The position numbers and the translations under genes are program-made. A DNA stretch of 64,000 nucleotides, taken from assembly GCF_032854445.1 (NCBI RefSeq), contig NC_088302.1:33509979-33573978 (forward strand), written 5' to 3'. This DNA comes from Liolophura sinensis (taxonomy: Eukaryota > Mollusca > Polyplacophora > Chitonida > Chitonidae). The notes under the pieces are model-generated. The model did no database searches and had not been told where the DNA came from. It saw nothing but the letters and a program-made list of their open reading frames with translations. Positions 38,601 to 64,000 of this stretch are shown here, in pieces; position 1 is the stretch's first letter; every line of letters begins with the position of its first letter.

Positions 38601-40875
38601 GACTTTGATGGAGCAAGAATAATGGTATGGTGATCAGGATTGGGTTCAGGGTGAAGAAGAGTGGTATGGTGATCAGGGTGGGGTTCAGGGTGAAGAAGAA
38701 TGGTGTGGAGTTCAGGGTGAAAAAGAATGGTATGGTGATCAGGGTGGGGTTCAGGGTGAAGAAGAATGGTGTGGAGTTCAGGGTGGGGTTCAGGTTGAAG
38801 AAGAATGGTATGGTGATCCGGATGGGGTTCAGGGTGAAGAATAGTATGGTGATCAGGATGGGGTTCAGGGTGAAGAATAGTATGGTGATCATTGTGGGGT
38901 TCAGGTTGAAGAAGAATGGTATGGTGATCCGGATGGGGTTCAGGGTGAAGAAGAATGGTATGGTGATCCGGATGGGGTTCAGGGTGAAGAATAGTATGGT
39001 GATCAGGATGGGGTTCAGGGTGAAGAATAGTATGGTGATCATTGTGGGGTTCAGGTTGAAGAAGAATGGTATGGTGATCACAATGGGGCTCAGTGTGAAA
39101 AAGAATGGTATGGTGATTTGGGTGGGGTTCAGGGTGAACAAGAATAGTATGGGGATCAGGATGGGGTTAAGGGTGAAGAATAATGGTTTCGTTATCACAT
39201 TGAGGTTTAGGGTGAAGAAGAATGGCATGGTGACCACAGTGGAGATTAGGGTGAAGAGTAATGGTACGGAGATTTTTATCCATTTCACCCAGAATTGTTT
39301 TAGTGAAAGCTGGTCTTAAAAAACTGCACCAGGATGTGTTAAGTGATCAAATTTCAAGTAGCAAAGTTTTATTGTAGGTACGTTTTCTCTCAGACCTCGT
39401 CAACTGCCATGTTATCGTAGCTGGCTCTCTTCTCGCACTTTTCGACAACTTTGTGGAGGTGACATTGGAAGACAGTATACCACAGGTGATTTTTTTTTTA
39501 ATCAAATACTATCAATCAATTTTTGTATTTTCTTCACTGAATTTAACAAATAAACTGTGGATAAGACCATCAAAATATTATCAAAGTGACTTTGGTTTTA
39601 ATCAAGGGATTGTGATTGTTACTACAAAAGTCATCCATGACCACTATTAAATTGCAGAGACTTTCAGTGTTTTCAAGAGTGTTTTCATTATGGAGTGACT
39701 CAGCAATATTGATATTCAATCTTAGAGTGTAAAATGTTACATCCAGCGGTATAATGTTTCAGTATAAATAACTGGCACCTAATTAATATGAATAATGCAG
39801 GATAATGACACTCACATGGATGCATTAATTTTGCATTTGTACAGTTATTTATCTGAAACTGGCTGTTTAGCACCCTAACAAGAGTGTCTCACTTACTAAC
39901 AGTTCTCATTTTTTTATAGGTACGATCTGACTGGTACACCTATGCCGTGTTGTCAGCATTACCTTGGGTGAGTCCATAATGTAGTGATGCGGATAAGTGA
40001 GCTGAAGTCAATAATGGCATAGATTTATACATGTGGTATATTTATGCTATTTCCTATGATATGCAAGAGGGTATGGGCTCAGTCATAGCAGGAAGGACGT
40101 GTAATTTTACCGTATTCCATGTTTTATTTGTACCGAAGAAGGCTATCAAAAACTATGTGTATTGGTGCTATTATTTTCAGGTGTTATTTTGTACGCAAAA
40201 TACAATAATGTAAGAAAAGAAATGAAGTGTATTTATTCTTGTTATTTTCTAGGATACGTTGCCCATACATATCATGTGCTCAATGCCAGCACGGAGAAAT
40301 GTACCAGTGTTTTTGTTATTTCCCAGGTTGGCAGAGAGCTTTTTGAGAAGAAAGAAGCAGAACTAAATAAGTTATTAGCAACAATAGAAAGCTATGTGAC
40401 GTAAGTTATATCAGAACTTGTCATTCTTATCACAAACACTACCATTTTACCGTGATAATTTTTCACGGTCAAATTATGTCTTAACCCTGATTGAAATTCC
40501 CCTGCTTTCTTGATAGAAAACACACGTGCATGATAGTTTAACATTTTATTCATGGTGATTAAGGTTTTCTTACCCGATCTGTACAAGTTGGTATGTATAG
40601 TCAACTCTCCATCCATTTGTCACAGAGGAATATTTTACAACTGACATGAAACCCATGGGGAACAAAATATGTAGCCATGTCACTACTACTGATGATTGAT
40701 CAATGTGTAGTTTGTGTTTTTGAATACCTTACAGATTAGTACATTAGATTTCCTAGGAAACAACGGATAATTGATCAGTATATTTTATCTTCTTGAATTT
40801 TGTAGGAAGCGACAGAAGATCCACTTGCCCGCTCTGAAAGTGTGGCAGGAAGATACCCCCCATCCTCAGGAAGAG
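32689..40875 (+). CDS. NCBP1: NCBP1 exons 1-9: basic N-terminus and first MIF4G-type domain
   Basis: Residues 1-30 hold two basic clusters (SRRRRN and GRKRRRTSE), the expected importin-alpha-binding nuclear localisation signal. From residue 35 on ([82 protein letters not shown]) the sequence follows the first helical MIF4G domain of CBP80 closely. Exon 7 is only 48 nt. Exon 5 (38553-38624) is followed directly by a minisatellite that copies its donor. Confidence 0.93.
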
Positions 40876-43800: not shown

Positions 43801-46800
43801 GCAAATAGGATTCACAAGTCTTTTTTTTTTATGGAGACCATGAATTTTGTAGTGAAGATACACGTGTTTTGTGAGTGCTTGAGCCATTTTAATTCTGTAA
43901 CATATTTACACACCAATACTTTTGGGAGCCCAAAACTAATAGGTCTTATAAAACTAACTAACTAATGTAAATTGAAAAAAATGACGGTTTATCAGTAAAA
44001 AGTTGTTTTCATACACATTTCTTTCATGCACAGACGTAAAAGCTCTAAAAGCGTCTAAAGTTGCATTTTTTGAAACTTTTTATGCTCGGTAACAGTGTCT
44101 CCTTTAATGTTTGGCATCATGACCTTCAATTTTTTTTTCAAGATATGGCATTGTTGAGGGTGTTTTCTAGCTAGTTTGTGTCGAGGGGTACATGTGTGAC
44201 TATCGTATTGATTTCTTCGCTATTCTGCTGTAAAGAAAGACAACCTCTGATGCGTTTGCTGTAATGAAACTATCCTGTTTTTGTTGTCATGAAGCATTCT
44301 CTTAAAATCTCGAAATACATGAACTCAAACTCTCAGATATGTATTGCATTTGTGGAAGTAATTTATTTTATTGGATAAAATATAAACTTTTGTTTGCAAG
44401 TCGAAATCTTAATTCATTTCCTCTAATTTTACTAATAAAGCTTGTATGGTTTCATGTATGACAAGTCTACCCATTTGAATGTTGAATGAGAATAATTCCA
44501 ATATTCCTTTTTGAACAGGGTCCAGTCTTGCCCGGAGCACATGCTATAGAGAGATATCTGATAGAGGAACAGCTCCATCGTATCATCCACACCAATCATT
44601 TGGAAAGGAAAGATTGGTAGGTATCCTGATGGTTTATTATAGACATTGTTATCAGTATGAAATCAACACTGGTTTCCTAAACCAGTAAAACTGGTTGTCA
44701 TTGTACCCTAATTTCTCAACCTTTCTGCATATGAAAAAGCAAATTTCAGTGCAACTTTGGCACATTTTTAATTTGATTTTGGAGACAGAACTACATTAGT
44801 TGTATCGGCCAATTTCAGGGTTTCACAAAAAGAATAATTTTATCAGTCTACACAGAATATTTCTTTCAAAGTGTGCTTGAATAAACATCTTGCAAACATG
44901 CAAAAAGGTGAAAGAATTAAAATATAAGTGATAAGTGGCAACTTTATGTAAGTCTATACTGTAGTCTATAGCATGGTAGATTAATACATAGATAGTACAT
45001 TTACTCTTCAGTAGTATAAGTGAAATATTCTTGAGTACGGCGTAAAACACAAATCAAATAAATAAATAAATACTCTTCAGTAAGGAACTACACTTATCTA
45101 AATCTTTCAGTATTTCCCACAATGCACACTTTTTGAAATACAACATGAGTGATGTCCCTTTGCAGTGCAGTATGTAGAAAACTATGGAAAAAATTAAACA
45201 GGATTGCATTATTCTTATGAATTGTGTTCTTGGGTGTATTTGGATGGCAGATATTGCAATAATGATAATACTCTGCCGGCAAAATGAGCTACACGAATAC
45301 TGCCATGTTAAAAGATAGGCTGGTATTCCTACCTTGCCTTAAATCCATTTTACACTGGAATGTCACACTGTTGTTGTAGTTACCTGAAAATTTCATATTG
45401 GTATTGAAAGTTGGTGAGATTAAAACACTTTGTAGTTGGATTTATAGTCATGTATTTGTAATGTTAGATATTTCTGCAGAAACAAATCTGCAGTTCATTT
45501 TTTTTATTAATACCATTGCTGGTGTTGTTTTTTGCCAGTGTCTTCACATATCTGTCCTGCCATTTTCTGAACACATGGTCTAACATTATATTTGTGCTTG
45601 ACAGTGCGGCAGCTCTCCTAAGTTTTCCTACAAAGAATAAATTCCCGCTCAACTATATGATTGTTGAGGTGAGTAAGAAAGTTAAGCTATCTTAGATTCA
45701 TTGTTCACATCAGGTTAATTTCATTCAGAAGACTTAACTGCAGTAACATTGAAATAAGATCCATGTGTGTTTCTGTCCTGTCATGGAATTGCATTTTCAA
45801 TATCCTAACATTGTAGAATTTAGAATTCGAAGATGAAGATCTTCTATTGCCCAGTGGCTAGCTTGCTAGCCCAGCACAGTGACCCATGAGCCTCTCACCA
45901 ATGCGGTTGCTGTGAGTTCAAGTACAGCTCATGCTGGCTTCCTCTCCGGCCGTATGTAGGGAAAGTGTATGGTCGTTTTTTTCCCCGGGCTCTTCCAGGT
46001 TTCCTCACACCATCATGACCATAATGCTGGCTGCCAATGTAAAACTGAAATGTTCTTGAGTACCAGTACATCATAAAACTCCAATCAAATATTAAAGAAA
46101 TTAATATATAAATTCAAAGGTTATCAAAAATATTTTAAAGAAAAGTGTTTGGTCCTGTTTATCTGTTGGCTAAAGCAGTGTTCTTGTTACTCCCAGTCAG
46201 TCATTGACCTGTGAAGTGGCAGGCTCAAATCCAGCTCTTGTTAGATTGGCTGAGGCTTTAAGTGAGGAGGTCTGTCAGATACCTGGTGAAGACCAGTGAT
46301 TTACTGCTGGGGCCTTCAGAAAACTGTACTTTGAAGTCATTTTTACCCACCAAAGTGAAAGTTAAAAAATTTGTATGTACTCTTATATGTTATGACACAT
46401 CATAATCTGCACATTAAGACACAGCACAAAACCATTTCATGAATCCTTCAACGCCAGGTTTCTTTGTGTGACAGGTCATGTTTGGCCAGCTCTTCCAGAT
46501 ACCCCGCCCCCCATACCTGGAGATATTCTACGGTTCAACATTGATAGAGCTGTGCAAACTCCAACCTGGCTCTATGCCACAAGTTGTATCTTTTAACATG
46601 TCTGTGAAAATCTTTGCTCTTTGGTTACCGTATGTCATCTAAAATTTAGCATTTTTCCAAGTGATACGTTTTGCTACGTTTTAAATGCATTTATGTCTAG
46701 GATGAATCTATGTATATTGTAAGCATGCTACCCGACTTAGTTTGACGTCCTGATCATGAACCAGGTCATGTTTCTTTTCTGTGACATATAGTTTTGCCGC

Positions 46801-47291
46801 AAATTGCGATCAAATTGCGAAAAAGCACAGTTTCCACCATCTTTAGTGGTCATGTGACAGAAACTTTTTACAGCTGTAAAGCTGTTAATCGTTGTGTAAT
46901 AAGGGCTATGTATGTATTATACGTATGCCGAAAATCTGATCATATCAATTCTGATCAATTCATTCATCTTATAGGGCCACCTAAAAGTTCTTTTCAGAAT
47001 AGTCTAAGTAATCTTAAGTGTACTGTAGGTATCAAAAGTATCATTTTAAGGCCTTTATGTGCTTCTGAAAGTGCATTTTTACATATCAAACTTTAGATGA
47101 AGTACAGTATATTAGTCGTTTAACTTGAGAAAATAATGTAAAAAATTCTGCTCTGTTTTTAAAATGTGTACTGTAGTAAAATAATTAAAACAATGAAAGT
47201 TCAGCCTTCCTTTAACAGTCTCTCAGTTGGCACAAGCTGTAGAGATGCTGTTTGCCAGACTAGATTCAATGAACACAGCAAGTATGGAAAG
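32689..47291 (+). CDS. NCBP1: NCBP1 / CBP80 (nuclear cap-binding protein subunit 1), first 14 coding exons, partial
   Basis: Coding exons: 32689-32734, 34286-34377, 35992-36092, 37841-37925, 38553-38624, 39378-39485, 39920-39967, 40327-40400, 40806-40875, 43321-43536, 44519-44616, 45605-45668, 46475-46585, 47227-47291. All are GT-AG and joined in phase to give 416 codons plus 2 nt. CBP80 forms the nuclear cap-binding complex with NCBP2 on the 5' cap of RNA polymerase II transcripts and serves splicing, 3' processing, export and the pioneer round of translation. The start [15 protein letters not shown] matches the vertebrate N-terminus in kind. The human protein is about 790 residues, so the second half is missing here. 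No further exon is visible in the 16.7 kb to the right edge, which is filled by a repeat array. Confidence 0.95.
33655..33782. mobile_element. MITE-like family 2, partial copy
   Basis: It shares GGCCAATTTCAGGG, TTTTAT.TCTACACAG and CATCTTGCAAACATGC with 44700-44927. The left end is missing. It lies in NCBP1 intron 1. Confidence 0.5.
34672..34872 (+). mobile_element. SINE family A, copy lacking the B box
   Basis: A clear A box (TGGCTCAGCTGGTTAGCGC) joins directly to CCAGCTCATGCTGGC, so the B-box segment is deleted. The 3' end is CTCGTATAAGTGAC and CACCAATTAAATAAAT. It lies in NCBP1 intron 2. Confidence 0.88.
36277..36757. repeat. 25-bp minisatellite, about 19 copies
   Basis: The unit is a 25-mer built from GCAATATGCTATACTC plus ACCAGTTAT, with point variants such as ATGCACC and ACTCACCTG. 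It lies in NCBP1 intron 3, about 190 bp after exon 3. All frames stay open for long stretches because the unit lacks stops. There are no unique spacers, so it is not a CRISPR array. Confidence 0.97.
37314..37682 (+). mobile_element. SINE family B, full-length copy
   Basis: tRNA-like head with ATAGCACAGTTGGTAGAGCG (A box) and GATCCAGGATCAATCC (B-box region), then CTTTAAAAGAGGAAGTTGTA, CGTATCAGTATAATGGCTCG, GTCGTCTCAGTGATGCAGCA, GTGGAAATCCGTCCTGCAAC and a tail TTGAGTACGACGTTAAACCC ending in CACTCACTC repeats. I associate this family with gastropod genomes. It is in NCBP1 intron 3. Confidence 0.9.
38140..38235 (+). mobile_element. SINE family A 3' fragment, decayed
   Basis: TCTTCCACCCTCCG, ATATAAGTGAAATATTTATC and GTTAAGCACCAAACAA are remnants of the 3' end. 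It lies in NCBP1 intron 4. Confidence 0.5.
38613..39265 (+). repeat. 36-39 bp minisatellite starting at the NCBP1 exon 5 donor
   Basis: The unit is AATGGTATGGTGATC, then AGGRTGGGGTTCAGGGTGAAG and AAG; short units lack 3 nt. About 17 copies are visible, partly in a higher-order pattern (38809-38925 repeats at about 38940-39070). The first copy spans the true exon 5 end and donor (AATAATG|GTATGG at 38624/38625), so most units carry a copy of the splice site. Confidence 0.93.
40876..43320 (+). other. NCBP1: NCBP1 intron 9
   Basis: The longest NCBP1 intron before the array (2.4 kb). Apart from a G-run near 42367 and a family 2 MITE fragment near 43200-43265 it looks unique. The open frames here are short and not recognisable. 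Confidence 0.7.
43321..47291 (+). CDS. NCBP1: NCBP1 exons 10-14: middle region up to the array
   Basis: Exon 10 (216 nt) carries [20 protein letters not shown] and [13 protein letters not shown]. Exon 11 carries [20 protein letters not shown]. Exon 12 carries [12 protein letters not shown]. Exon 13 carries [15 protein letters not shown]. Exon 14 carries [21 protein letters not shown]. These match human CBP80 in order. Exon 14 uses the acceptor at 47225-47226 and ends with a good donor (AG|GTAAGA) in phase 2. Confidence 0.93.
43565..43690 (+). mobile_element. SINE family A, 3' half
   Basis: GGTTGTGGGTTTCCCCCTGA, AGTTTCCTCCCACC, CAGTCGTATAAGTGAAATAT, TTGAGTATGGTG and an AATAAATACA tail. It begins 30 bp after NCBP1 exon 10. 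Confidence 0.88.
44700..44927. mobile_element. MITE-like family 2, full copy
   Basis: About 228 bp with inverted ends: left CCCTAATTTCTCAACCTTTC, and the right end in reverse complement starts TTTTAATTCTTTCACCTTTT. Copies at 7267-7680 and 33655-33782 align. No open frame. Confidence 0.65.
45011..45072 (+). mobile_element. SINE family A, terminal 3' fragment
   Basis: Only GTATAAGTGAAATATTCTTG, AGTACGGCGTAAAACAC and the (AAAT)n tail are present. Very little divergence, so probably a young 5'-truncated insertion. Confidence 0.85.
45848..46105 (+). mobile_element. SINE family A, full-length diverged copy
   Basis: Head CCAGTGGCTAGCTTGCTAGC, B box GAGTTCAAGTAC, CTCATGCTGGCTTCCTCTCC, a disturbed centre, then ATAATGCTGGCTGCC, TTCTTGAGTACCAGTACATC and CCAATCAAATATTAAA. 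It lies in NCBP1 intron 12. Confidence 0.85.
46190..46420 (+). repeat. dispersed repeat, family 3 copy 3
   Basis: A tRNA-like stretch (GCAGGCTCAAATCCAGC) is followed by GACCAGTGATTTACTGCTGG, GGCCTTCAGAAAACTGTA and TTTGTATGTACTCTTATATG. The last part aligns with 3255-3412 and 31752-31905. The tRNA-like start suggests the family may itself be a SINE. Confidence 0.45.
46645..47105 (+). repeat. older dispersed repeat carrying a B-module insertion
   Basis: Flanks TTTAGCATTTTTCCAAGTGA and TTATGTGCTTCTGAAAGTGC match 6703-7060. Between them, at 46676-46945, is a segment related to the tail module of the array units. The right flank resumes with ATTCTGATCAATTCATTCATC, matching ATTCTGACCGCATTCATCG of the other copy. 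Confidence 0.65.
46676..46945 (+). mobile_element. solo copy of the array's B-tail core
   Basis: It shares TTTTAAATGCATTT, GTAAGCATGCTACCCGAC, TAGTTTGACGTCCTGATCAT, GTTTTGCCGCAAAT, GCGAAAAAGC and TACAGCTGTAAAGCTG, in order, with 52030-52300. About 270 bp long, inserted in an older repeat inside NCBP1 intron 13. Confidence 0.75.
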
Positions 47292-47400
47292 GTAAGATCA
47301 ATGTACATCAAGCTTTGTATTGTGTCTTACCTGGAAATGTATATCTAACTAGTCTCAGTACTAGCTCACATAATTATAATCAGTATTTTGTTTATTATTA

Positions 47401-47593
47401 GGGATCCCGTTCTCCCGAACGGGATACCTATTGTTATTGTTCTGTTTTTTAGGGATCCCGTTCTACCCGAACGGGATCCCTATTGTTATTGTTCTGTTTT
47501 TTCTTCTTATTATTAGGGACCCCGTTCTCCCGAACGGGATACCTATTGTTATTGTTCTGTTTTTAGGGATCCCGTTCTCCCGAACGGGATCCC
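47401..47593 (+). repeat. four tandem head hairpins at array start
   Basis: Hairpins GGGATCCCGTTC / GAACGGGATCCC (some with GGGATACC) at 47401-47428, 47452-47480, 47515-47542 and 47566-47593. Each is followed by TATTGTTATTGTTCTG and a T-tract. They open the first array unit. Confidence 0.9.
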
Positions 47594-48912
47594 TATTGTA
47601 ATCGTTCTGTTTTTTCTTATTATTATTATTATTATTATTATTATTTTTTTTTCACCGACTTTGTTAGCAAGGAAACTTTTTTACCGTTCAACATAGAGGT
47701 CTCAAATTTTGCACACATATTCTGGCGGAGATTTTCCAGGGATAAATTCTCCACTTTTTTTTCATGTCACGTGGTTCGGCCGCCATATTGGATTTTGTGT
47801 AAAATCTTTAAAAATCTTCTTCTCCAGAACCACTGAACCGATCGTTTTCAAATTTGACATACAACTAATAGGTCACGAGTTCTTTAAAGTTTGCGAAAAT
47901 GGTTCACTTCCGGTCAAAATTCTGGAAGCTCGCTATTGGTCGAATTTGTGACGTCACAAAAAATTCTCAAAGTTCTAATGTTCTGAACGTATTCTGATGT
48001 ATCTTGAGCTGCTGATTCCGAATCTAGTTGTATTTTTTGCATATCTGTGTAACTTTTTGAGATATTAGCAAAAAACTCAAAAAACTTACGTAAGTTCAAT
48101 GACCTGTAACTCGAGATCTATGGCAGCTAGAAATGCGCAACCTGCACGAAATTGTAGCCCAAGACATGCTCTTTCGATCATGCGTCAACAGATTTGAGCT
48201 CCGATCAATAGTTTTTTCGCTAGAAGCGTTTAAATCAGAAAACCGTTTTTTGTTTAGAAAAAGGTTGGAATCCTATTGCTTTAACATGGAGTTAGATGGG
48301 GACTGGACTGGGTTTGTAGTATTTGACCTGATGCTTTCGGCTACACTGTCCGTGATCTCCCGAAACGGTTGTAGGATGACATTGATTCCAGTTCCCATCT
48401 AACTCCAGTACTCTATTAGAAGGCGTAGAGATCTAACTACAACAGCAAATGACATGGACCTGTAAAAGTTAGCTTTGTTTTGCGCAGACCTCGTCCTCTT
48501 TACTATACGTTAAACAGTTCAGGGTGATTGACAGATATGGACATGTGCCGTGGTCCAAGTGCTGACTTTCTAACGATGGCCAAGCTATCAGTGGAGCTGT
48601 GAGTCTGTACAAACTTTGTGTTGCACTAGTCGTGTTTTTGCATTATTTCTTACAATTAATGGGCTAAGTCTGCCAAGGAACGACCGTTTTTCACTGGGCA
48701 TAGCGTAGTATCATCAAGGTCGCCGATCTATTCGAGGGATTGCAAATGACCGGCCGACTGCCTCAGTGACAAACGGTGTAAGGTCGCATAGAAACTTTGA
48801 AAGCCGTGTATGTGGAACATGGGTCCTTCGAACACAGATCATGAAGGGGAAAACGTCATCGATCAGATCCGGGATCCCGGCCTAGGATCTGCTATTCGCA
48901 GATCCATTCTAG
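47594..48912 (+). repeat. array unit 1 (head X, tail A)
   Basis: Head with CACCGACTTTG and AAGGAAAC. It holds CACGTG at 47768-47773, GCCGCCATATTGG just after, and the palindrome TTTGTGACGTCACAAA at 47945-47960. Inverted pair 48288-48306 / 48388-48406. Tail of A type. The terminal block has one variant base. Confidence 0.85.
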
Positions 48913-50231
48913 TTATTATTATTATTATTATTATTTTTTTTTTCGAATTTGTTAGCAGCAGAACTCAAACACCGTTTAAGACAGAAGTTCAAAATTTCGC
49001 ACACATAATTTTGAGAAGATTTTCTAGGGGTATATTTTTTTTTTTTAGGCTATGTCACGTGGTTCGGCCGCCATATTGGATTTTGTGTAAAATCTTTAAA
49101 AATCTTCTTCTCAAGAACCACTAAACCGATCGTTTTCAAATTTGACATGCAGCTAGTAGGTCACGAGTTCTTTAAAGTTTGCGAAAATGGTTTACTTCCG
49201 GTCAAAATTCTGGAAGCTCGCTATTGGTCGAATTTGTGACGTCACAAAAAGTTCTCAAAGTTCAAATGTTCTCAACGTATTCTGATGTATCTTGAGCTGC
49301 TGATTCTGAATCTGCTTGTATTTTTTTGGTATCTGCAAAACTTTTTGAGATATGAGCAAAAAACTCAAAAAAGTGACGTAACTTCAATGACCTGTAACTC
49401 GAGATCTGTAGCAGCTAGAACTGTGCAACCTGCACGAAATTGTAGCCCAAGGCATGCTCTTTCGAGCATTCGTCAACGGATTTGAGCTCCGATCAATAGT
49501 TTTTTCGCTAGAAGCGTTTAAATGACAACACCGTTTTTTGTTTAGAAAAGATTGGAATCCTATTGATTTAACATGGAGTTAGATGGGGACTGGACTGGGT
49601 TTGTAGTATTTGACCTGATGCTTTCGCCTACATTGTCCGTGATCTCCCGACACGGTTGTAGGATGACATTGATTCCAGTTCCCATCAAACTCCAGTACTC
49701 TATTAGCTGGCGTAGAGATCTAACTACAACAGCAATCGACGTGGACCTGTAAAAGTTAGCTTTGTTTTGCGCAGACCTCGTGCTCTTTACTATACGTTAA
49801 ACAGGCCTGGGTGACTGACAGATATGGACATGTGCCGTGCTCCAAGTGCTGAGTTTCTAACGATGGCCGAGCTATCAGTGGAGCAGTGAGTCTGTGCATA
49901 GTAGGTCGTGGATTGAGATGTGAATGTACAAACTTGCTGTTACACTGGTCGTGTTTTTGCCTTATTTCTTACAACTAGCCGGCTAAGTCTGCCAAAGAAC
50001 GACCGTTTTTCGCTGGGCATGGCGTAGCATCATCAAGGTCGCCGATCTATTCGAGGGAATGCAAATGATCAGCCGACTGCCTCAGTGACAAACGGTGTAA
50101 GGTCGCAAGGTAACTTTGAAAGCCGTGTATGTGGAACATGTGTCCTTCGAACACAGAACATGAAGGGGAAAACGTCATCGATCCGATCCGGGATCCCGGC
50201 CTAGGATCTGCTATTCGCAGATCCATTCTAG
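48913..50231 (+). repeat. array unit 2 (head Y, tail A), 1319 bp
   Basis: Head GTTAGCAGCAGAACTC with no hairpin. The tail has private variants (CATAGTAGG, AACTAGCCGG, GCAAGGTAAC) shared only with unit 5. Confidence 0.85.
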
Positions 50232-52397
50232 TTTCTTATCATTATTATTTTTTTTTCACCGACTTTGTTAGCAGCAGAACTCCAACAGCGTTCAACATAG
50301 AAGTCCCAAATTTCGTACACATAATCTGGCGGAGATTTTCCAGGGGTATATGTTTCATTTTTTTTTTATGTCACGTTTTTCGGCCGCCATATTGGATTTT
50401 GTGTAAAACCTTTAAAAATCTTCTTCTCCAGAACCACTGAACCGATCGTTTTCAAATTTGATATGCAGCTAGTACGTCACGAGTTCTTTAAAGTTTGCGA
50501 AAATGGTTCACTTCCGGTCAAAACTCTGAAAGCTCGCCATTGGTCGAATTTGTGACGTCACAAAAAGTTCTCAAAGTTCAATTGTTCTGAACGTATTCTG
50601 GTGTATCTTGAGCTGCTGATTTCGAATCTGGTTGTATTTTTTGCATATCTGTGTAACTTTTTGAGATATAAGCAAAAAACTCAAAAAAGTTACGCAATTT
50701 CAAGGACCTGTAACTCAAGAACTAAGGCAGCTAGAAATGTGCAACCTGCACCAAATTGTAGCCCTAGACATGCTCATTCGAGCATTCGTCAACGGATTTG
50801 AGCTCCGATCAATAGTTTTCTTGCTAGAAGCGTTTAAATGACAACACCGTTTTTTGTTTAGAAAAAGATGGTAATCCTATTGCTTTAACATGGAGTTAGA
50901 TGGGGACTGGACTGGGTTTGTAGTATTTGACCTGATGCTTTCGGCTACACTGTCCGTGACCTCCAGAAACGGTTGTGCTATGACATTCAGTCCAGTTCCT
51001 ATCTAACTCCAGTACTCTATTAGATGGCGTAGAGATCTAACTACAACAGCAAACGACGTGGACCTGTAAAAGTTAGCTCTGTTTTGCCCAGACCTTGTTT
51101 ACTATACGCTAACCAGGCCAGGGTGATTGACAGATATGGACATGTGCCCTGGTCCAGGTGTTGACTTTCCGACAACAGCCGGGCTATCAGTAGAGCTGTG
51201 AGTCTGTGCATGGCAGGTCGTGGATTGAGACGTGGAAGTTCAAATTTGCTGTTACACGGGCTGTGTTTTTGCATTATTCCTTACATAAAGCCAGCCAAGT
51301 CTGCCAAGGAATGACCGTTTTTCACTGGGCATAGCGTCGCATAGGGAATGACCGGCCGACTGCCTCAGTGACAAACGGTGTAAGGTCGCATGGAGACTTT
51401 GAAAGCGGTGTAGCTAGTTATGTGTTGATTTTCGACCAATAACTTATGTTCTCATATAAAAGATGAAAGCATAAAGAAAATTTGTATATAGACTTGAAGT
51501 GAGATTTGCGACTTCCTTGGGGACTACGTGAGATATACAATAGTGTGGGTGGTAGGGGAGATGCTGGCGAAATTTTCTAAGACTTGACCTAATTACACAA
51601 GGATTTAAACGCTAACCGTCTTCCGTCTGCGTGGTGTGACGCCTGTCAGTCATGTCAGAGTTCGATCCCAGCTTAGGCAATTTGTCAGGCTATAAAAATG
51701 TTGTGAATTTTAAGGTTTCAAGTAGGCTGCTAGGCGTAGTTCGATGTTCTGATGACGAATTTGGTGGTTTTTCCTTTGTCCGATGCACGGTTTTGTCGCC
51801 AATTGCCATCGAAGTGCGAAAAAGTGCAATTTTCGCCCATGTTTGGCGGTCACGTGACACAAAACTGCTGCAGCTGTGGAGTTGAAAATCACTGAGTGCA
51901 AAGGGCAATATGTGTACTGTAGGCGTGCGTAAAATCATGGAAGTGTGTCAATAAATGTGGGAGTTGCAATGCTTCAAATATTGTCCAAAGGCCGATTGGC
52001 TATATTTGGCACTTTGACGTCCCCATGTTATATGATGCATTTTAAATGTATTTGCGACTGGGATAAAGGCACGAACAATGTAAGCATGCTACCCGACGTA
52101 GTTTGACGTCCTGATCATAAATCTGGACTTATTTCTTTCCGGCGACGCATAGTTTTGCCGCAAATGACGATGAAAACGCGAAAAAGCGCAATTTTTCACC
52201 ATATTTGGAGATCTATTGCGAGGAAACAGTAACAGCCGTAAAGCTGAAAATCACCGAGTGCAAAGCGCTAAATACGTACACTATGTGTGCCGAAAATCTT
52301 TGATCTGTGTCAACAACCACAGGACATGCAGGGGAAAATGTCATCGATCCGATCCGGGATCCCGGCCTAGGATCTGCTATTCGCAGATCCATTCTAG
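50232..52397 (+). repeat. array unit 3 (head Y, tail C), 2166 bp
   Basis: The longest unit. An A-type tail start to about 51415 is followed by a segment with two diverged B-core copies in tandem (about 51650-51960 and 52030-52310) and then the terminal block. The CACGTG of other units is changed to CACGTT here. Confidence 0.85.
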
Positions 52398-53851
52398 TTA
52401 GGGATTCTAGCATTCTAGCTATTGTTATTGTTCTGTTTTTTCTTATTAGGGATCCCGTTCTTCCGGAACGGGATCCCTATTGTAATCGTTCTGTTTTTTC
52501 TTATTATTATTATTATTATTTTTTTTTCACCGACTTTGTTAGCAAGGAAACTTTTTTACTGTTCATCATAGAGGTCTCAAATTTTGCACACATAATCTGG
52601 CGGTGATTTTCCAGGGATAAATTCTCCATTTTTTTTTCATGTCACGTGGTTCGGCCGCCATATTGGATTTTGTGCAAAATCTTTAAAAATCTTCTTCTCC
52701 AGAACCACTGAACCGATCATTTTGTAATTTGACATGCAGCTAGTAGGTCACGAGTTCTTTAAAGTTTGCGAAAATGGTTCACTTCCGGTCAAAACTCTGG
52801 AAGCTCGCTATTGGTCGAATTTATGACGTCACAAAAAGTTCTCAAAGTTCAATTGTTCTTAACGCATTCTGATGTATCTTGAGCTGCTGATTCCGAATCT
52901 GCTTGTATTTTTTCTATATCTGTGTAAGTTTTAGAGATATTAGCAAAAAACTGAAAATTGTTACGTAACTTCAATGGCCTTTTAATCCAGAACTATAAGA
53001 GATAGAAATGTGCAACCTGCACGAAAATGTAGCCCAAGACATGCTCTTTCGATCAGTCGTCAATGGATTTGAGCTCCGATCAATAGTTTTCTCGCTAGAA
53101 GCGTTTAAATCACAACACCGTTTTTCGCTTAGAAAAAGATGGGTATCCTATTGCTTTAACATGGAGTTAGATGGGGACTGGACTGGGTTTGTAGTATTTG
53201 ACCTGATGCTTTCGGCTACACTGTCCGTGATCTCCCGAAACGATTGTAGGATGACATTCAGCTATAGAGTACTCTATTAGGTCGCGTAGAATTCTAACTA
53301 CAAAAGCAAACGACGTGGACCTGTAAAAGTTAGCTTTGTTTTTCGCAGGCCTTGTCTTCGATTGGCTATGTTTAGCACTTTGACGTCCCCATGTTATATG
53401 ATGCATTTTGAATGCATTTGCGACTAGGATGAACACACGAACATTGTAAGCATACTACCAGATGTAGTTTGACGTCCTAATCATAAATTTGGACATATTT
53501 TTTTCCGGCGACTTACAGCTTTTCCGCATAATTGCGATCAAAAGGCGATAAAGCCGAACTTTTGACCATATTTGGAGGTCTGGTGAGAGATATCCGTTAC
53601 AGCTGTAAAGCTGAAAATGACTGAGTGCAAAGCGTTACACATGTAGTCTATGTCTGCTAATACTCTTTGATCTATGTCAACAAACACAGGACATGCACGT
53701 TTTCAAAGAATGTCCTAAGGCAGATTTACCACATTCGGCACATTTCCATAAGCTTGCTTTTACAAGGGCCGTGTATTATTGGTTGGGGAAAACGTCATCG
53801 ATCCGATCCGGGATCCCGGCCTAGGATCTGCTATTCGCAGATCCATTCTAG
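52398..53851 (+). repeat. array unit 4 (head X, tail B), 1454 bp
   Basis: It begins with a damaged head copy and then an intact head hairpin at 52449-52477. Mid-region of the CATTCAGCTATA type, tail of B type. Nearly the same as unit 7. Confidence 0.85.
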
Positions 53852-55167
53852 TTATTATTATTATTATTTTTTTTTCACCGACTTTGTTAGCAGCAGAACT
53901 CAAACACCGTTCAACATAGAGGTCTCAAATTTTGTAAACACAATCTGGCGGTGATTTTCCAGGGGTATATTTTTTGTTTTTTTCTTAAGTCACGTGGTTC
54001 GGCCGCCATATTGGATTTTGTGTAAAATCTTTAAAAATCTTCTTCTCCAGAACCACTGAACCGATCGTTTTCAAATTTGACATGCAGCTAGTAGGTCACA
54101 AGTTCTTTAAAGTTTGCGAAAATGGTTCACTTCTGGTTAAAATTCTGGAAGCTCGCTATTGGTCGAATTTGTGACGTCACAAAAAGTTCTCAAAGTTCAA
54201 TTGTTCTGAACGTATTCTGATGTATCTTGAGCTGCTGATTCTGAATCTGCTTGTATTTTTTTGGTATCTTCAAAACTTTTTGAGATATAAGCAAAAAACT
54301 CAAAAAAGTTACGTAAGTTCAATGACCTGTAACTCGAGATCTGTGGCAGCTAGAAATCTGCAACCTGCACGAAATTGAAGAACAAGACATGCTCTTTCGA
54401 GCATTCGTCAACAGATTTCAGCTCCGATTAATAGTTTTTTCGCTAGAAGCGTTTAAATGACAACACCGTTTTTTGTTTAGAAAAAGATGGGAAGCCTATT
54501 GCTTTAACATTGAGTTAGATGGGGATTGGACTGGGTTTGTAGTATTTGACCTGATGCTTTTGGCTACACTGTCCGTGATCTCCCCAAACGGTTGTAGGAT
54601 GACATTGATTCCAGTTCCCATCTAACTCCAGTATTCTATTAGATGGCGTAGAGATCTAACTACAACAGCAATCGACGTGGACCTGTAAAAGTTAGCTTTG
54701 TTTTGCGCAGACCTCGTCCTCTTTACTATACGTTAAACAGGCCAGGGTGACTGACAGATATGGACATGTGCCGTGCTCCAAGTGCTGAGTTTCTAACGAT
54801 GGCCGAGCTATCAGTGGAGCAGTGAGTCTGTGCATAGTAGGTCGTGGATTGAGATGTGAATGTACAAACTTGCTGTTACACTGGTCGTGTTTTTACGTTA
54901 TTTCTTACAACTAGCCGGCTAAGTCTGCCAAAGAACGACCGTTTTTCGCTGGGCATGGCGTAGTATCATCAAGGTCGCCGATCTATTCGAGGGAATGGAA
55001 ATGACCGGCCGACTGCCTCAGTGACAAACGGTGTAAGGTCGCAAGGTAACTTTGAAAGCCGTATATGTGGAACATGTGTCCTTCGAACACAGAACATGAA
55101 GGGGAAAACGTCATCGATCCGATCCGGGATCCCGGCCTAGGATCTGCTATTCGCAGATCCATTCTAG
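53852..55167 (+). repeat. array unit 5 (head Y, tail A), 1316 bp
   Basis: No head hairpin. It shares private tail variants with unit 2. Confidence 0.85.
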
Positions 55168-56489
55168 TTATTATTATTATTATTATTTTTTTTTTTTTTC
55201 GATTTTGTTAGCAGCAGAACTCAAACACCGTTCAACATAGAAGTTTAAAATTTTGCACACACAATCTAGAGGAAATTTTCTAGGGGTATATTTTTTTTTT
55301 TTTTTGCTATGTCACGTGGTTCGGCCGCCATATTGGATTTTGAGTAAAATCTTTAAAAATCTTCTTCTCCAGAACCACTGAACCGATCGTTCTCAAATTT
55401 GACGTGTAACTAGTAGGTCACCAGTTCTTCAAAGTTTGCGAAAATGGTTCACTTCCGGTCAAAACTCTGGAAGCTCGCCATTGGTCGAATTTGTGACGTC
55501 ACAAAAAGTTCTCAAAGTTCATATGTTCTGAACGCATTCTGATGTATCTTGAGCTGCTGATTCCGAACCTGCTTGTATTTTTTCAATATCTGTGTAACTT
55601 TTTGAGATATCAGCCAAAAAATCGATAAAGTTACGTAACTTCAATGACCTGTAACTCGAGAACTAGGACAGCTAGAAATGTGCAACCTGCACCAAATTGT
55701 AGCCCAAGACATGCTCTTTCGAGCATTCGTCAACAGATTTCAGCTCCGATCAATAGTTTTTTCGCTACAAGCGTTTAAATCACAACACCGTTTTTTGTTT
55801 AGAAAAAGGTGGGAATCCTATTGCTTTAACATGGAGTTAGATGGGGACTGGACTGGGTTTATAGTATTTGACCTGATGCTTTCGGCCACACTGTCCGTGA
55901 TCTCCCAAAACAGTTGTAGGATGACATTGATTCCAGTTCCCATCTAACTCCAGTACTCTATTAGCTGGCGTAGAGATCTAACTACAACAGCAAATGACAT
56001 GGACCTGTAAAAGTTAACTTTGTTTTGCGCAGACCTCGCCCTCTTTACTATACGTTAAACAGTCCAGGGTGATTAACAGATATGGACATGTGAACTGGTC
56101 CAAGTGCTGACTTTCCAACGATGGCCGAGCTATCAGTGGAGCAGTGAGTCTGTGCATGGCATGTCATGGATTGAGATGTGAATGTACAAACAGGCTGTTA
56201 CACTGGTCGTGTTTTTGCCTTATTTCTTACAAATAGCGGGCTAAATCTGCCAAGAAACGACCGTTTTTCACTGGGCATAGCGTAGCATCATTAGGGTCGC
56301 CGATCTATTCGAGGGAATACAAATGACCGGCCGACTGCCTCAGTGATAAACGGTGTAAGGTCGCATGGAAACTTTGAAAGCCGTGTATGTGGAACATGTG
56401 TCCTTCGAACACAGAACATGAAGGGGAAAACGTCATCGATCCGATCCGGGATCCCGGCCTAGGATCTGCTATTCGCAGATCCATTCTAG
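55168..56489 (+). repeat. array unit 6 (head Y, tail A), 1322 bp
   Basis: Head CGATTTTGTTAGCAGCAG with a long T-tract near 55290, AGCCAAAAAATC and AAATCTGCCAAGAAACGAC. Unit 11 shares all of these. Confidence 0.85.
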
Positions 56490-57901
56490 TTAGGGATCCC
56501 GTTCTTCCGGAACGGGATCCCTATTGTAATCGTTCTGTTTTTTCTTTTTATTATTATTATTATTATTATTTTTTTTTCACCGACTTTGTTAGCAAGGAAA
56601 CTTTTTTACTGTTCACCATAGAGGTCTCAAATTTTGCACACACAATCTGGCGGAGATTTTCCAGGGATAAATTCTCCATTTTTTTTTCACGTCACGTGGT
56701 TCGGCCGCCATATTGGATTTTGTGCAAAATCTTTAAAAATCTTCTTCTCCAGAACCACTGAACGGATCATTTTGTAATTTGACATGCAGGTAGTAGGTCA
56801 CGAGTTCTTTAAAGTTTGCGAAAATGGTTCACTTCCGGTCAAAACTCTGGAAGCTCGCTATTGGTCGAAATTATGACGTCACAAAAAGTTCTCAAAGTTC
56901 AATTGTTCTTAACGTATTCTGATGTATCTTGAGCTGCTGATTCCGAATCTGGTTGTATTTTTTGCATATCTGTGTAACTTTTTGAGATATGAGCAAAAAA
57001 CTGAAAAAAGTTACGTAATTTCAATGGCGTTTTAATCCAGAACTATAAGAGCTAGAAATGTGCAACTTGCACGAAAATGTAGCCCAAGACATGCTCTTTC
57101 GATCAATCGTCAACAGATTTGAGCTCCGATCAATAGTTTTCTCGCTAGAAGCGTTTAAATGACAACACCGGTTTTCGCTTAGAAAAAGATGGGTATCCTA
57201 TTGCTTTAACATGGAGTTAGATGGGGAATGGACTGGGTTTGTAGTATTTGACCTGATGCTTTCGGCTACACTGTCCGTGATCTCCCGAAACGATTGTAGG
57301 ATGACATTCAGCTATAGAGTACTCTATTAGGTCGGGTAGAATTCCAACTACAAAAGCAAACGACGTGGACCTGTAAAAGTTAGCTTTGTTTTCCGCAGAC
57401 CTTGTCTTCGATTGGCTATGTTTAGCACTTTGACGTCCCCATGTTATATGATGCATTTTGAATGCATTTGCGACTGGGATGAACACACGAACATTGTAAG
57501 CATACTACCAGACGTAGTTTGACGTCCTAATCATGAATTTGGACATATTTTTTTCCGGCGACGTACAGTTTTTCCGCATAATTGCGATCAAAAGGCGATA
57601 AAGCGGAAGTTTTGACCATATTTGGAGGTCTGGTGAGAGATATCCGTTACAGCTGTAAAGCTGAAAATGACTGAGTGCAAAGCGTTACACATGTAGTCTA
57701 TGTCTGCTAATACTCTTTGATCTATGTCAACAAACACAGGACATGCACGTTTTCAAAGAATGTCCTAAGGCAGATTTACCACATTCGGCACATTTCCATA
57801 AGCTTGCTTTTACAAGGGCCGTGTATTATTGGTTGGGGAAAACGTCATCGATCCGATCCGGGATCCCGGCCTAGGATCTGCTATTCGCAGATCCATTCTA
57901 G
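56490..57901 (+). repeat. array unit 7 (head X, tail B), 1412 bp
   Basis: Head hairpin at 56493-56521, CATTCAGCTATA mid-region and B tail ending in ATTATTGGTTGGGGAAAACG. Almost identical to unit 4 through the tail. Confidence 0.85.
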
Positions 57902-59794
57902 TATTATTATTATTATTATTATTTTTTTTTCACCGACTTTGTTAGCAAGGAAACTTTTTTACTGTTCAACATAGAGGTCTCAAATTTTGCACACAAATTC
58001 TGGCGGTGATTTTCCAGGGATAAATTCTCAATTTTTTTTTCATGTCACGTGGTTCGGCCGCCATATTGGATTTTGTGTAAAATCTTTAAAAATCTTCTTC
58101 TCCAGAACCAATGAACCGATTGATTTCAAATTCAACATGCAGCTAGTAGGTCACGAGTTCTTCAAAGTTTGCGAAAATGGTTTACTTCCGGTCAAAACTC
58201 TGGAAGCTCGCTATTGGTCGAATTTATGACGTCACAAAAAGTTCTCAAAGTTCAAATGTTTTTAACGGATTCTGATGTATCTTGATCTGCTGATTCCGAA
58301 TCTGGTTGTATTTTTTCGATATCTGTGTAACTTTTTGAGATATAAGCAAAAAACTCAAAAAAGTGACGTAATTTCAATGGCGTTTTAATCGAGAACAATA
58401 GAAGCTAGAAATGTGCAACCTGCACCAAATTGTAGCCCAAGACATGCTCTTTCGATCATTCGTCAACAGATTTGAGCTCCGATCAATGGTTTTTTCGCTA
58501 GAAGCGTTTAAATGACAACACCGTTTTTCGCTTATAAAAAGATGGGAATCCTATTGCTTTAATATGGAGTTAGATGGGGACTGGACTGGATTTATAGTAT
58601 TTGACCTGATGCTTTCGGCTACACTGTCCGTGATCTCCCCAAACGGTTGTAGGATGACATTCAGCTATACAGAACTCTATTAAATGACGTAGAGTTCTAA
58701 CTACAACAGCAAACGAATTGGACCTGCAAAAGTTAACTTTGTTTTGCGCAGGCCTTGTCTTCTTTACTTTACGCTAACCAGGCCAGGGTGATTGACAGAC
58801 ATCGCCATGTGCCCTGGTCCATGTGTGGACTTTCAAACAACGGCCTAGATATCAGTAAAGCACTGAGTCTGTGCATGGCAGGTCGCGGATTGAGACATAA
58901 AAGTACAAACTATGATATTTCTTCTTTCTTTGTTTCCTCTTACCGCTGACGCGTGTCAGCCATGTCAGAGTTCGATCCCAGCCTAGCGAATTTGTCAAGC
59001 GATGAAAATGTTGTCAATTTTAAAGTTTTAAGTTGGCTGCTAGGCGTAGTTGGATGTTCTGATGACGAATCTGGTGTATTTTTCTTTCTCCGACGCACGG
59101 TTTTGTCGCCAATTGCTATGAAATTGCGAAAAAGTGCAATTTTAGACCATGTTTGAAGGTCACGTGACAGAAAATCGCTGCAGCTGAGGAGCTGAAAATG
59201 ACTAAGTGCAAAGGCCTATATCGATACTGTATGCTTTCGGAAAATCGTTGAACTGTTAAAATAAATGTGGGAGTTGCAGGGCTTGAAAAATTGTCCAAAG
59301 GCCGATTGGCTATGTTTGGCACTTTGACGTCCTCTTGTTATATGATGCATTTTAAATGCATTTGCGACTAAGATGAACACATGAACATTGTAAGCATGCT
59401 GCCAGATGTAGTTTGATATCTTGATTATGAATCTGGACTTATTTTTTGATGGCGACGTACAATTTGGCCGCAAATTGCGATCAAAAGGCGAAAATTCGCA
59501 AATTTTCACCATATTTGAAGGTCTGGTGAGAGAAAACTGTTACAGCTGTAAAGCTGAAAATCACTAAGTGCAAAGCGTTACACATGTAGTCTATGTGTGC
59601 TAAAACTCTTTGATTTGTGTCGACAAACACAGGACATGCACGTTTTCAAAGAATGTCCTAAGGAGCATCTACCACATTCGGCACATTTACATAAAGTTGC
59701 TGTTACAAGGGCGGTGTATTATTGGTTGGGGAAAACGTCATCGATCCGATCCGGGATCCCGGCCTAGGATCTGCTATTCGCAGATCCATTCTAG
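57902..59794 (+). repeat. array unit 8 (head X, tail C), 1893 bp
   Basis: X-type head sequence without the hairpin, CATTCAGCTATA mid-region, then a double B-core tail (first core from about 58960, second from about 59330). Confidence 0.85.
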
Positions 59795-59979
59795 TTATTA
59801 TTATTAGGGATCCCGTTCTTCCGGAACGGGATCCCTATTGTTATTGTTCTGTTTTTTCTTATTATTAGGGATCCCGTTCTTCCCAAACGGGATCCTTATT
59901 GTTATTGTTCTGTTTTTTCTTATTATTAGGGATCCCGTTCTCCCGAACGGGATCCCTATTGTAATCGTTCTGTTTTTTC

Positions 59980-60014
<35 letters not shown>

Positions 60015-61303
60015 TTTTTTTCACCGACTTTGTTCGCATGGAAACTTTTTTACCGTTTAACATACAGGTCTGAAATTTTGCACACATATTCTGGCGGTGA
60101 ATACCTCGGGACAAATTCTCCACTTTTTTGCCATGTCACGTGGTTCGGACGCCATATTGGATTTTGTGTAAAATCTTTAAAAATCTTCTTCTCCAGAACC
60201 ACTGAACCGATCGATTTCAAATTTGACATGCTGCTAGTAAGTTACGAGTTCTTTAAAGTTTGCGAAAATGGTTCACTTCCGGTCAAAATTCTGGAAGTTC
60301 GCCATTGGTCGAATTTATGACGTCACAAAAAGTTCTCAAAGTTCAATTGTTCTGAACGTATTCTGGTGTATCTTGAGCTGCTGATTCTGAATCTGCTTGT
60401 ATTTTTTGCATATCTGTGTAACTTTTTGAGATATTAGCAAAAAACTCAAAAAAGTGACGTAACTTCAATGACCTGTAACTCGAGATCTGTGGGAGATAGA
60501 AATGTGCAACCTGCACGAAATTGTAGCCCAAGACATGCTCTTTCGATCATTCGTCAACAGATTTGAGCTCCGATCAATAGTTTTTTCGCTACAAGCGTTT
60601 AAATGACAACACCGTTTTTTGTTTAGAAAAAGGTGCTAATCCTATTGCTTTAACATGGAGTTAGATCTGGGTTTGTAGTATTTGACCTGATGCTTTCGGC
60701 TACACTGTCCGTGATCTCCCGAAACGGTTGTAGGATGACATTGATTCCAGTTCCCATCTAACTCCAGTACTCTATTAGATGGCGTAGAGATCTAACTTCA
60801 ACAGCAAACGACATGGACCTGTAAAAGTTAGCTTTGTTTTGCGCAGACCTCGTTCTCTTTACTATACGTTAAACAATCCAGGGTGATTAACAAATATGGA
60901 TATGTGAACTGGTCCAAGTGCTGACTTTCTAACGATGGCCGAGGTATCAGTGGAGCAGTTAGTCTGTGCATGGCATGTCGTGGATTGAGATGTGAATGTA
61001 CAAACTTGCTGTTACACTGGTCGTGTTTTTGCCTTATTTCTTACAATTAGCGGGCTAAGTCTGCCAAGGAACGACTGTTTTTCACTGGGCATAGCGTAGC
61101 ATCATTAAGGTCGCCAATCTATTCGAGGGAATGCAAATGACCGGCCGACTGCCTCAATGGCGAAAGGTGTAAGGTCGCATGGAAACTTTGAAAGCCGTGT
61201 ATGTGAAACATGTGTCCTTCGAACACAGAACATGAAGGGGAAAACTTCATCGATCCGATCCGGGATCCCGGCCTAGGATCTGCTATTCGCAGATCCATTC
61301 TAG
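59795..61303 (+). repeat. array unit 9 (head X', tail A), 1509 bp
   Basis: Three head hairpins (59807-59835, 59868-59896 imperfect, 59929-59956). Head variant TTCGCATGGAAAC shared with unit 10. A short deletion removes part of the left arm of the internal inverted pair near 60665. Confidence 0.85.
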
Positions 61304-62660
61304 TTATTAGGGATCCCGTTCTCCCGAACGGGATCCCTATTGTAATCGTTCTGTTTTTTCTTATTATTATTATTATTTTTTTTTCACCGACTTTGTTCGC
61401 ATGGAAACTTTTTTACCGTTCAACATACAGGTCTGAAATTTTGCACACATATTCTGGCGGTGAATATCTCGGGACAAATTCTCCACTTTTTTGTTATGTC
61501 ACGTGGTTCGTCCGCCATATTGGATTTTGTGAGAAATCTTTAAAAATCTTCTTCTCCAGAACCACTGAACCGATCAGTTTCAAATTTAACATGCAACTAG
61601 TAGGTCATGAGTTCTTTAAAGTTTGCGAAAATGGTTCACTTCCGATCAAAACTCTGGAAGCTCGCCATTGGTCGAATTTATGACGTCACAAAAAGTTCTT
61701 AAAGTTCATTTGTTCTGAACGAATTCTGATGTATCTTGAGCTGCTGATTCCGAATCTGGTTGTATTTTTTGCATATCTGTGTAACTTTTTGAGATATGAG
61801 CAAAAAACTAAAAAAATTACGTAATTTCAATGGCGTTTTAATCGAGAACTATGGCAGCTAGAAATGTGCAAATTGCATGAAAATGTAGTTCAAGACACGC
61901 TCTTTCGATCATTCGTCAACGGATTTGAGCTCCGATTAAAAGTTTTCTCGCTAGAAGCGTTTAAAAAACAACACCGTTTTTGTTTAGAAAAAGATGGGAA
62001 TCCTATTGCTTTAACATGGAGTTAGATGGGGAATGGACTGGATTTGTAGTATTTGACCTGATGCTTTCGGCTACACTGTCCGTGATCTCCCGAAACCGTT
62101 GTAGGATGACATTCAGCTATACAGTACTATATTAGATGGCGTAGAGATCTAACTACAACAGTAAACGGCATGCAACTGTGAAAGTTAGCTTTGTTTTGCG
62201 TAGACCTCGTCCTCTTTACTACACGTTAAAGAGGCCAGGGTATTTGACAGATATGGACATGTGCCGTGGCCCAAGTGCGGGCTTTCTATTGATGGCCGAG
62301 CTATCATAAGAGCCGTGAGTCTGTGCATGGCGTGTCGTGGATTGAGATGTGAATGTACAAACTTGCTGTTACACTGGTCGTGTTTTTGCGTTATTTCTTA
62401 CAAATAGCGGGCTAAGTCTGCCAAGGAACGACCGTTTTTCACTAGGCATAGCCTAACTTCATTAAGTTCGCCGATCTATTCACGGGAATGCAAATGACCG
62501 GCCGACTGCCTCAGTGACAAACGGTGTAAGGTCGCATGGAAACTTTGAAAGCCGTGTATGTGGAACATGTGTCCTTCGAACACAGAACATGAAGGGGAAA
62601 ACGTCATCGATCCGATCCGGGATCCCGGCCTAGGATCTGCTATTCGCAGATCCATTCTAG
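61304..62660 (+). repeat. array unit 10 (head X', tail A), 1357 bp
   Basis: One head hairpin at 61310-61337, TTCGCATGGAAAC head, B-like CATTCAGCTATA mid-region but an A tail, so it is a mosaic. Confidence 0.85.
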
Positions 62661-63978
62661 TTATTATTATTATTATTATTTTTTTTTTTCGATTTTGTTA
62701 GCAGCAGAACTCCAACACCGTTCAACATAGAAGTTTAAAATTCTGCACACACAATCTAGAGGAAATTTTCTAGGGGTATATTTTTTTTTTTTTTGCTATG
62801 TCACGTGGTTCGGCCGCCATATTGGTTTTTGAGTAAAATCTTTAAAAATCTTCTTCTCCAGAACCACTGAACCGATCGTTCTCAAATTTGACATGCAACT
62901 AGTAGGTCAGGAGTTCTTCAAAGTTTGCGAAAATGGTTCACTTCCGGTCAAAACTCTGGAAGCTCGCCATTGGTCGAATTTGTGACGTCAAAAAAAGTTC
63001 TCAAAGTTCATATGTTCTGAACGTATTCTGATGTATCTTGAGCTGCTGATTCCGAATCTGGTTGTATTTTTTCAATATCTGTGTAACTTTTTGAGATATC
63101 AGCCAAAAAATCAATAAAGTTACGTAACTTCAATGACCTGTAACTCGAGAACTAGGACAGCTAGAAATGTGCAACCTGCACCAAATTGTAGCCCAAGACA
63201 TGCTCTTTCGAGCATTCGTCAACGGATTTGAGCTCCGATCAATAGTTTTTTCGCTACAAGCGTTTAAATCACAACACCGTTTTTTGTTTAGAAAAAGATG
63301 GGAATCCTATTGCTTTAACATGGAGTTAGATGGGGACTGGACTGGGTTTATAGTATTTGACCTGATGCTTTCGGCCACATTGTCCGTGATCTCCCGAAAC
63401 GGTTGTAGGATGACATTGATTCCAGTTCCCATCTAACTCCAGTATTCTATTAGATGGCGTAGAGATCTAACTACAACAGCAAACGACGTGGACCTGTAAA
63501 AGTTAGCTTTGTTTTGCGCAGACCTTGTCCTCTTTACTATACGTTAAACAGGCCAGGGAGATTGACAGATATGGATATGTGTCCTGGTCGAAGTGCTGAC
63601 TTTCTAACGATGGCCGAGCTATCAGTGGAGCAGTGAGTCCGTGCATGGCAGGTCGTGGATTGAGATGTGAATGTACAAACTTGCTGTTACACTGGTCGTG
63701 TTTTTGCCTTATTTCTTACAAATAGCGGACTAAATCTGCCAAGAAACGACGGTTTTTCACCGGGCATAGCGTAGCATCATTAGGGTCGCCGATCTATTCG
63801 AGGGAATACAAATGACCGGCCGACTGCCTCAGTGACAAACGGTGTAAGGTCGCATGGAATCTTTGAAAGCCGTGTATGTGGAACATGTGTCCTTCGAACA
63901 CAGAACATGAAGGGGGAAATGTCATCGATCCGATCCGGGATCCCGGCCTAGGATCTGCTATTCGCAGATCCATTCTAG
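62661..63978 (+). repeat. array unit 11 (head Y, tail A), 1318 bp
   Basis: Close relative of unit 6 along its whole length. After its CTAG the next unit begins with TTA repeats and runs off the window at 64000. Confidence 0.85.
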
Positions 63979-64000
63979 TTATTATTATTATTATTATTTT

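Follow-up and report, generated by a model that had tools for sequence, protein, structure and literature searches.

The window analyzed here, a stretch of 64,000 nucleotides from Liolophura sinensis (assembly GCF_032854445.1, contig NC_088302.1, forward-strand positions 33,509,979 to 33,573,978), closes with a tandem array of repeat units that share a strongly conserved 3′ end. The units are probably non-autonomous rolling-circle elements of a Helitron2/HINE-like kind, an assignment made from their anatomy. The history that we favor, at a probability of about one-half, is that members of a rolling-circle family with Helitron2/Helentron-HINE ends and a CTAG tip were inserted serially, in the same orientation, at the T-rich heads of resident copies and then recombined. 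Every copy has a perfect tail while many are without the usual head, a pattern suggesting growth of the array by insertion of copies next to others already in place.

Architecture of the array and its units

Cut after the heptamer ATTCTAG, the array comprises 11 head-to-tail units of 1316 to 2166 bp each, spanning approximately 47392 to 63978 on the plus strand. A scan of the window for the terminal hairpin GGATCTGC-TATTC-GCAGATCC returned 11 exact plus-strand copies, compared to none in 100 shuffled sequences, and ATTCTAG follows directly after all 11. Among the best 20 (largest) of 58 overlapping families from a repeat-family scan were 11 body copies, in register and in one orientation, at spacings of 1288 to 2271 bp. 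The first-pass annotation, made from the letters of the sequence, had described at least 11 same-orientation units of about 1.3 to 2.2 kb, each ending in an 8-bp-stem hairpin, ATT, and CTAG, and all of this is borne out. Its further statement that TTA repeats immediately follow each CTAG holds for most junctions: the next base is T at 11/11, TTA at 9/11, and TTATTA at 7/11, with TA and TTTC at one junction each. The first unit starts with TTATTATTA at 47392 to 47400. After the last unit, a TTA run reaches the final base of the window, so the array continues to the window end and the count of 11 is a minimum.

From 5′ to 3′, a unit consists of (TTA)n, zero to four hairpin blocks, (TTA)n, a T-run, the body, and a 67-bp end. 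Units 2 (48913 to 50231), 5 (53852 to 55167), 6 (55168 to 56489), and 11 (62661 to 63978) have neither a central module nor a 5′ hairpin; the second coordinate marks the unit end here and below, and all units are on the plus strand. Units 1 (47392 to 48912), 9 (59795 to 61303), and 10 (61304 to 62660) are also without a central module and carry four, three, and one 5′ hairpin blocks, respectively. One central module is present in unit 4 (52398 to 53851), together with two 5′ hairpin blocks, the first of them degenerate, and one in unit 7 (56490 to 57901), together with a single block. The long units 3 (50232 to 52397) and 8 (57902 to 59794) contain two diverged central modules and no 5′ hairpin; those of unit 3 lie at approximately 51700 to 52035 and 52036 to 52330, and the TTA phase after the CTAG preceding unit 8 is shifted. 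The modules are approximately 300 bp long, and the other seven units have no match to them at an E value of 1e-4. A relative of the module is located outside the array at 46679 to 46937 (plus strand), in the intron upstream of exon 47220 to 47291; it shows 69 to 77% identity with the six module copies of units 3, 4, 7, and 8 and is perhaps a dispersed repeat carried by the element.

The 5′ hairpin block, 50 to 61 bp in length, precedes the TTA run in 5/11 units, with one to four copies in each and 11 blocks in total, one of which is degenerate. Its arms, GGGATCCCGTTC and GAACGGGATCCC, pair in a strong hairpin (consensus stem of 14 bp; folding z-score, −7.9), and TTA precedes GGGATCCCG, which is part of that stem. 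The sequence GGGATCCC occurs 27 times in the array and not at all in the remaining 47 kb of the window. In unit 1, the 5′ region (47392 to 47614, plus strand) consists of (TTA)3 and four hairpin blocks, each with a subterminal repeat and a complementary arm, and a (TTA)9 microsatellite is found at 47617 to 47643 on the same strand. A TTA run of at least four repeats is present in 10/11 units, unit 3 having a short ATT run only. No TTA/TAA run of this length occurs in the other 47 kb, and the microsatellite therefore belongs with the element. The blocks adjacent to the body read TAATCG in 5/5 cases and those farther out read TTATTG in 6/6; the outer blocks are thus not fresh duplicates of the inner one. 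The degenerate first block of unit 4 (52398 to 52419) holds two extra copies of ATTCTAG, the letters of the 3′ tip, in place of the hairpin, perhaps as a scar of insertion or end-joining.

The conserved 3′ end, exemplified by 63912 to 63978 (plus strand), contains the palindrome CCGGGATCCCGG, the 8-bp-stem hairpin, ATT, and CTAG. In its common form, the last 28 nt fold at −8.5 kcal/mol (z-score, −6.9), and the hairpin is perfect in 11/11 units. The palindrome is located 34 bp from the 3′ end and has 9 bp in common with the 5′ hairpin; in unit 7, this 9-bp palindrome sits 3 nt (one TTA) from the 5′ end.

Relationship to known rolling-circle transposons

The rolling-circle class proposed in the first pass is supported by this anatomy, and the layout appears to fit Helitron2/Helentron-HINE elements more than canonical Helitrons. 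The absence of a clear 5′ TC, already remarked upon in the first pass, was confirmed at the presumed 5′ border, which is itself inferred from the junctions, and it sets the units apart from the canonical Helitrons Helraiser and Helibat as described in the cited sections of the literature, on which all comparisons here draw. The canonical 3′ CTRR with a hairpin is present, as CTAG in 11/11 units, with the hairpin ending 7 nt before the 3′ terminus, compared to a described distance of ∼10 to 12 nt. Insertion between A and T is compatible with the T that follows CTAG at every junction; the left border is ambiguous because the head itself is TTA. In Helraiser, the hairpin is reported to act as the terminator, the left end is essential, and CTAG is joined to T (PMC4778049).

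The closest resemblance is to HINE/DINE-1 elements, the non-autonomous Helentrons that include Cg_HINE of oysters and Pearl of bivalves. Members of this group are expected to insert into TT without target duplication and to share their ends with an autonomous Rep/helicase/endonuclease element. As far as these are described, they have a 5′ subterminal repeat with a complementary arm, a microsatellite, optional central repeats, a 3′ subterminal palindrome, a 3′ hairpin, and T-rich surroundings. Comparable parts are seen in the array, the 5′ repeat and arm in some of its units, and no coding capacity was found in the ten open stretches searched. In mite HINEs, the 5′ subterminal inverted repeat lies 2 to 4 nt from the 5′ end and the 3′ repeat lies ∼38 to 60 bp from the 3′ end (PMC4067079), and in oyster HINEs, a complementary arm and a microsatellite stand behind the 5′ repeat, followed by the 3′ repeat and palindrome (PMC7492417). 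In the array, the 3′ hairpin is intact throughout, and the complementary arm is found in 5/11 units. The differences from HINEs are the CTAG tip, the 9-bp shared repeat, which is absent from the 5′ end of 6/11 units, and a tandem arrangement in which entire units keep their 3′ ends.

Two other systems share parts of this architecture. The Helitron2-type elements FoHeli1 and FoHeli2 of Fusarium carry a hairpin at either end and, 38 to 51 bp from the 3′ end, an inverted repeat (PMC5148889); hairpins at both ends with a set-back inverted repeat, here of 9 bp, are seen in 5/11 units. FoHeli copies likewise have repeated 5′ ends, for which a self-insertion route has been proposed, and a three-copy tandem in Metarhizium was explained by either insertion into the 5′ end or rolling-circle copying (PMC5148889). 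Unlike the array, with its 11 or more copies in which no coding capacity was seen, FoHelis end in ATTTT or CTCCTGT and some copies carry a transposase gene. The proto-Helentron of Phytophthora infestans has a 5′ TT and a 3′ CTAG and inserts between A and T (PMC4067079), comparable to the 5′ TT(A), CTAG, and following T of the array. It differs in being ∼14 kb long with a Rep/helicase gene, and the cited part of its description does not mention subterminal repeats.

Growth of the array

Conservation across the array is concentrated at the 3′ end. In the last 67 of the 891 columns shared by all 11 units, 4 are variable, versus 30.2% of the other 824 (binomial P = 1e-6), and the longest invariant run, of 47 columns, is also at the 3′ end (2000 shuffles: mean, 17.6; maximum, 49); these statistics are indicative because the 67-bp limit was drawn after the alignment had been viewed and the columns are not independent. 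Of the stretches that nearly all units have, the initial 100 columns show the lowest conservation (mean identity, ∼0.80). Pairwise identities range from 0.870 to 0.971 over the shared columns (median, 0.906), such that bodies differ by 3 to 13%, and from 0.830 to 0.972 over all pairwise aligned columns. Units that lie farther apart in the array are no less alike (Mantel r = 0.10; P = 0.77). The closest pairs are units 4 and 7 (0.969), 6 and 11 (∼97%), and 2 and 5, which stand three, five, and three units apart. The units flanking these pairs show no more than average similarity to each other; for the flanks of units 4 and 7, the values are 0.907 and 0.889. A block-structure statistic of −0.23 (P = 0.97) gives no sign of block duplication, and a simple higher-order repeat was rejected. 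The pairwise homoplasy index (PHI) over 108 informative sites is 0.270, compared to 0.361 (standard deviation, 0.012) in shuffled alignments, and 0/1000 shuffles were as low. Nearby sites thus agree more than distant ones and the bodies are mosaic, which supports recombination among the units or their sources; the mosaicism may stem from exchange within the array or among source elements.

Under the favored history, a Rep/helicase made elsewhere in the genome would nick at the 5′ hairpin end, and one strand would be copied until the 3′ palindrome and hairpin brought copying to a stop, with cleavage after CTAG. The copy would integrate at a T-rich site and leave no target duplication. The resident’s oriented (TTA)n and T-run head would then cause later copies to land there in the same orientation, yielding a head-to-tail array. 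Recombination across TTA tracts would later delete the 5′ hairpin block or add copies of it, and the mosaic bodies would arise by exchange among the units or among their source elements. According to a review, transposon dimers in Drosophila stem chiefly from insertion-site preference (PMC12628747).

We also considered a local origin, in which unequal crossing over, either between TTA tracts or between bodies, amplified one or a few initial insertions into a satellite that is no longer mobile. This is the best surviving alternative and is consistent with the mosaic bodies, with the variation in how many 5′ hairpin blocks stand between the TTA tracts, and with ends that have no match in the other 47 kb of the window. 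We nevertheless judge it unlikely: neither the similarity between neighbors nor the block structure of a classical satellite was found, and conservation favors one particular end and does not extend to the body, a pattern that homogenization alone does not predict. The description of the array in the first pass as a rolling-circle family “turned satellite” is, to that extent, not upheld as the main process.

Ranked behind this is a rolling-circle concatemer, in which the 3′ hairpin termination was missed, or a circle was copied repeatedly, and a multiunit strand was inserted once and then diverged. At 9/11 junctions, the TTA-rich head of the next unit follows CTAG with nothing between them, and precise head-to-tail junctions and tandem Helitron arrays, including arrays in plants and bats mentioned in a Helraiser study (PMC5876387), are described in the cited literature (PMC4778049, PMC5876387), with bypassed termination as an explanation (PMC4067079). 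However, the units differ by 3 to 13%, yet their 3′ ends are near-invariant, which a single event followed by neutral decay would not predict, and the units also differ in their central modules. Moreover, many plant arrays attributed to lost terminators are reviewed as having several 5′ ends and one 3′ end (PMC12628747). The array has the reverse pattern, retaining all 11 3′ ends while the 5′ ends vary, and we regard the single-insertion origin as doubtful.

A SINE/LINE-like retroposon that carries a 3′ hairpin, ends in a (TTA)n tail, and inserts into its own tail microsatellite is improbable. Some non-LTR elements do possess 3′ hairpins, microsatellite tails, and microsatellite targets, and a TTA microsatellite does follow the hairpin in the array. 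Against such an origin, graded 5′ truncation is not seen among the 11 units, the palindrome of the 5′ hairpin recurs in the 3′ end, and a microsatellite additionally separates the 5′ hairpin from the body, as reported for oyster HINEs (PMC7492417). In addition, no reverse transcriptase was detected in the ten open stretches analyzed (see below). Finally, long repeat arrays are often misassembled, but stacking of a dispersed or shorter repeat by the assembler is very improbable given that the window contains no N and that units which differ from each other and come in several lengths would be hard to make from one unit.

Several observations weigh against serial insertion of HINE-like elements. 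The lack of a 5′ hairpin in 6/11 units is odd if this hairpin is the left end. In described HINEs, the shared repeat is 11 to 15 bp long (PMC4067079, PMC7492417), compared to 9 bp for the palindrome here, and sharing of 9 bp was reached in 40/5000 shuffles of the 5′ block that kept its composition. As a tip, CTAG marks canonical Helitrons and is not a hallmark of HINEs. No solo copy, autonomous partner, or empty site was seen in the 64-kb window, and a BLAST comparison of the unit ends with the 47 kb preceding the array gave no match. The conservation statistics are indicative, as stated above, with at least one of the 2000 shuffles (at 49) exceeding the 47-column run, and gene conversion confined to the 3′ end would conserve that end as well.

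Coding capacity and database searches

Ten of the 42 open stretches of at least 70 amino acids in the array were searched, and no Rep, helicase, or endonuclease domain and no other element protein was found in them; the sole Pfam match was to CbiQ at 0.041, below its cutoff. Two open stretches repeated among the units were rejected as coding candidates, with variable columns by codon position of 29/84, 22/84, and 29/84 for one and 28/92, 26/92, and 21/90 for the other. A known structured RNA was likewise rejected, the region from 44000 to 64000 giving just four subthreshold matches to CrcZ (E = 0.21 to 0.97). Three sequence patterns each had 0 matches in viral contigs, and a pattern search of prokaryote genome contigs also gave 0 matches. 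A shorter pattern matched 10 times in prokaryote contigs, where an estimated ∼7.5 matches are expected (18 fixed bases, 257 billion); these were judged to be chance matches, also from their bacterial titles. Phages and plasmids queried with unit 3 gave no match.

Host gene and other features of the window

The array likely sits in an intron of NCBP1, of which the window holds the left side, the following exon lying beyond it. The exon to the left of the array (47220 to 47291, plus strand; borders set by eye) ends in a donor-like GTAAGA, placing the start of the array ∼100 bp into the next intron. Peptides from 46.5 to 47.3 kb, in which this exon is joined to the preceding one, match NCBP1 chains in the PDB (E = 1.2e-16), as do peptides from 43.3 to 44.6 kb (E = 1.8e-41). 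The gene name rests on these matches, and the stretch at 43258 has no Pfam match. The first pass had the array filling an NCBP1 intron; the exon at left is indeed NCBP1, and the right border and the length of the array fall outside the window.

Elsewhere in the window, a polyubiquitin gene of approximately eight 228-bp repeats is located at 26469 to 28284; its last repeat is diverged, and the seventh contains a one-base frame break, for which sequencing error and decay are not distinguishable from the window sequence. A likely SCAPER gene lies on the minus strand at 13731 to 20629, where one open stretch matches SCAPER_N at 1.1e-18; two other open stretches there have no Pfam match, one of which we take to resemble SCAPER. 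Minisatellites are present at 36276 to 36751 (19 copies of a 25-bp unit, open across one frame) and at 38615 to 39273 (39-bp units with a longer period of 150 bp).

Implications for array formation

Serial insertion, satellite growth, and concatemer formation are each known processes, and the kind of element is known too. Tentatively, the element’s own oriented, TTA- and T-rich head may be its preferred landing site, with one-way stacking giving rise to growing arrays in genes; such an element would combine hairpins of the Helitron2/HINE type with a canonical CTAG tip, its 3′ end would stay constrained, and recombination at the microsatellite would delete its 5′ ends or add to them. A frequent explanation of tandem Helitron arrays is that rolling-circle copying failed to terminate; the 11 intact 3′ ends, the varying 5′ ends, and the closest relatives that are not neighbors point instead to insertion beside residents. 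The pattern of the array thus offers a way to tell growth routes apart from sequence, and it shows how an element of this kind could seed long tandem DNA beside a housekeeping exon.

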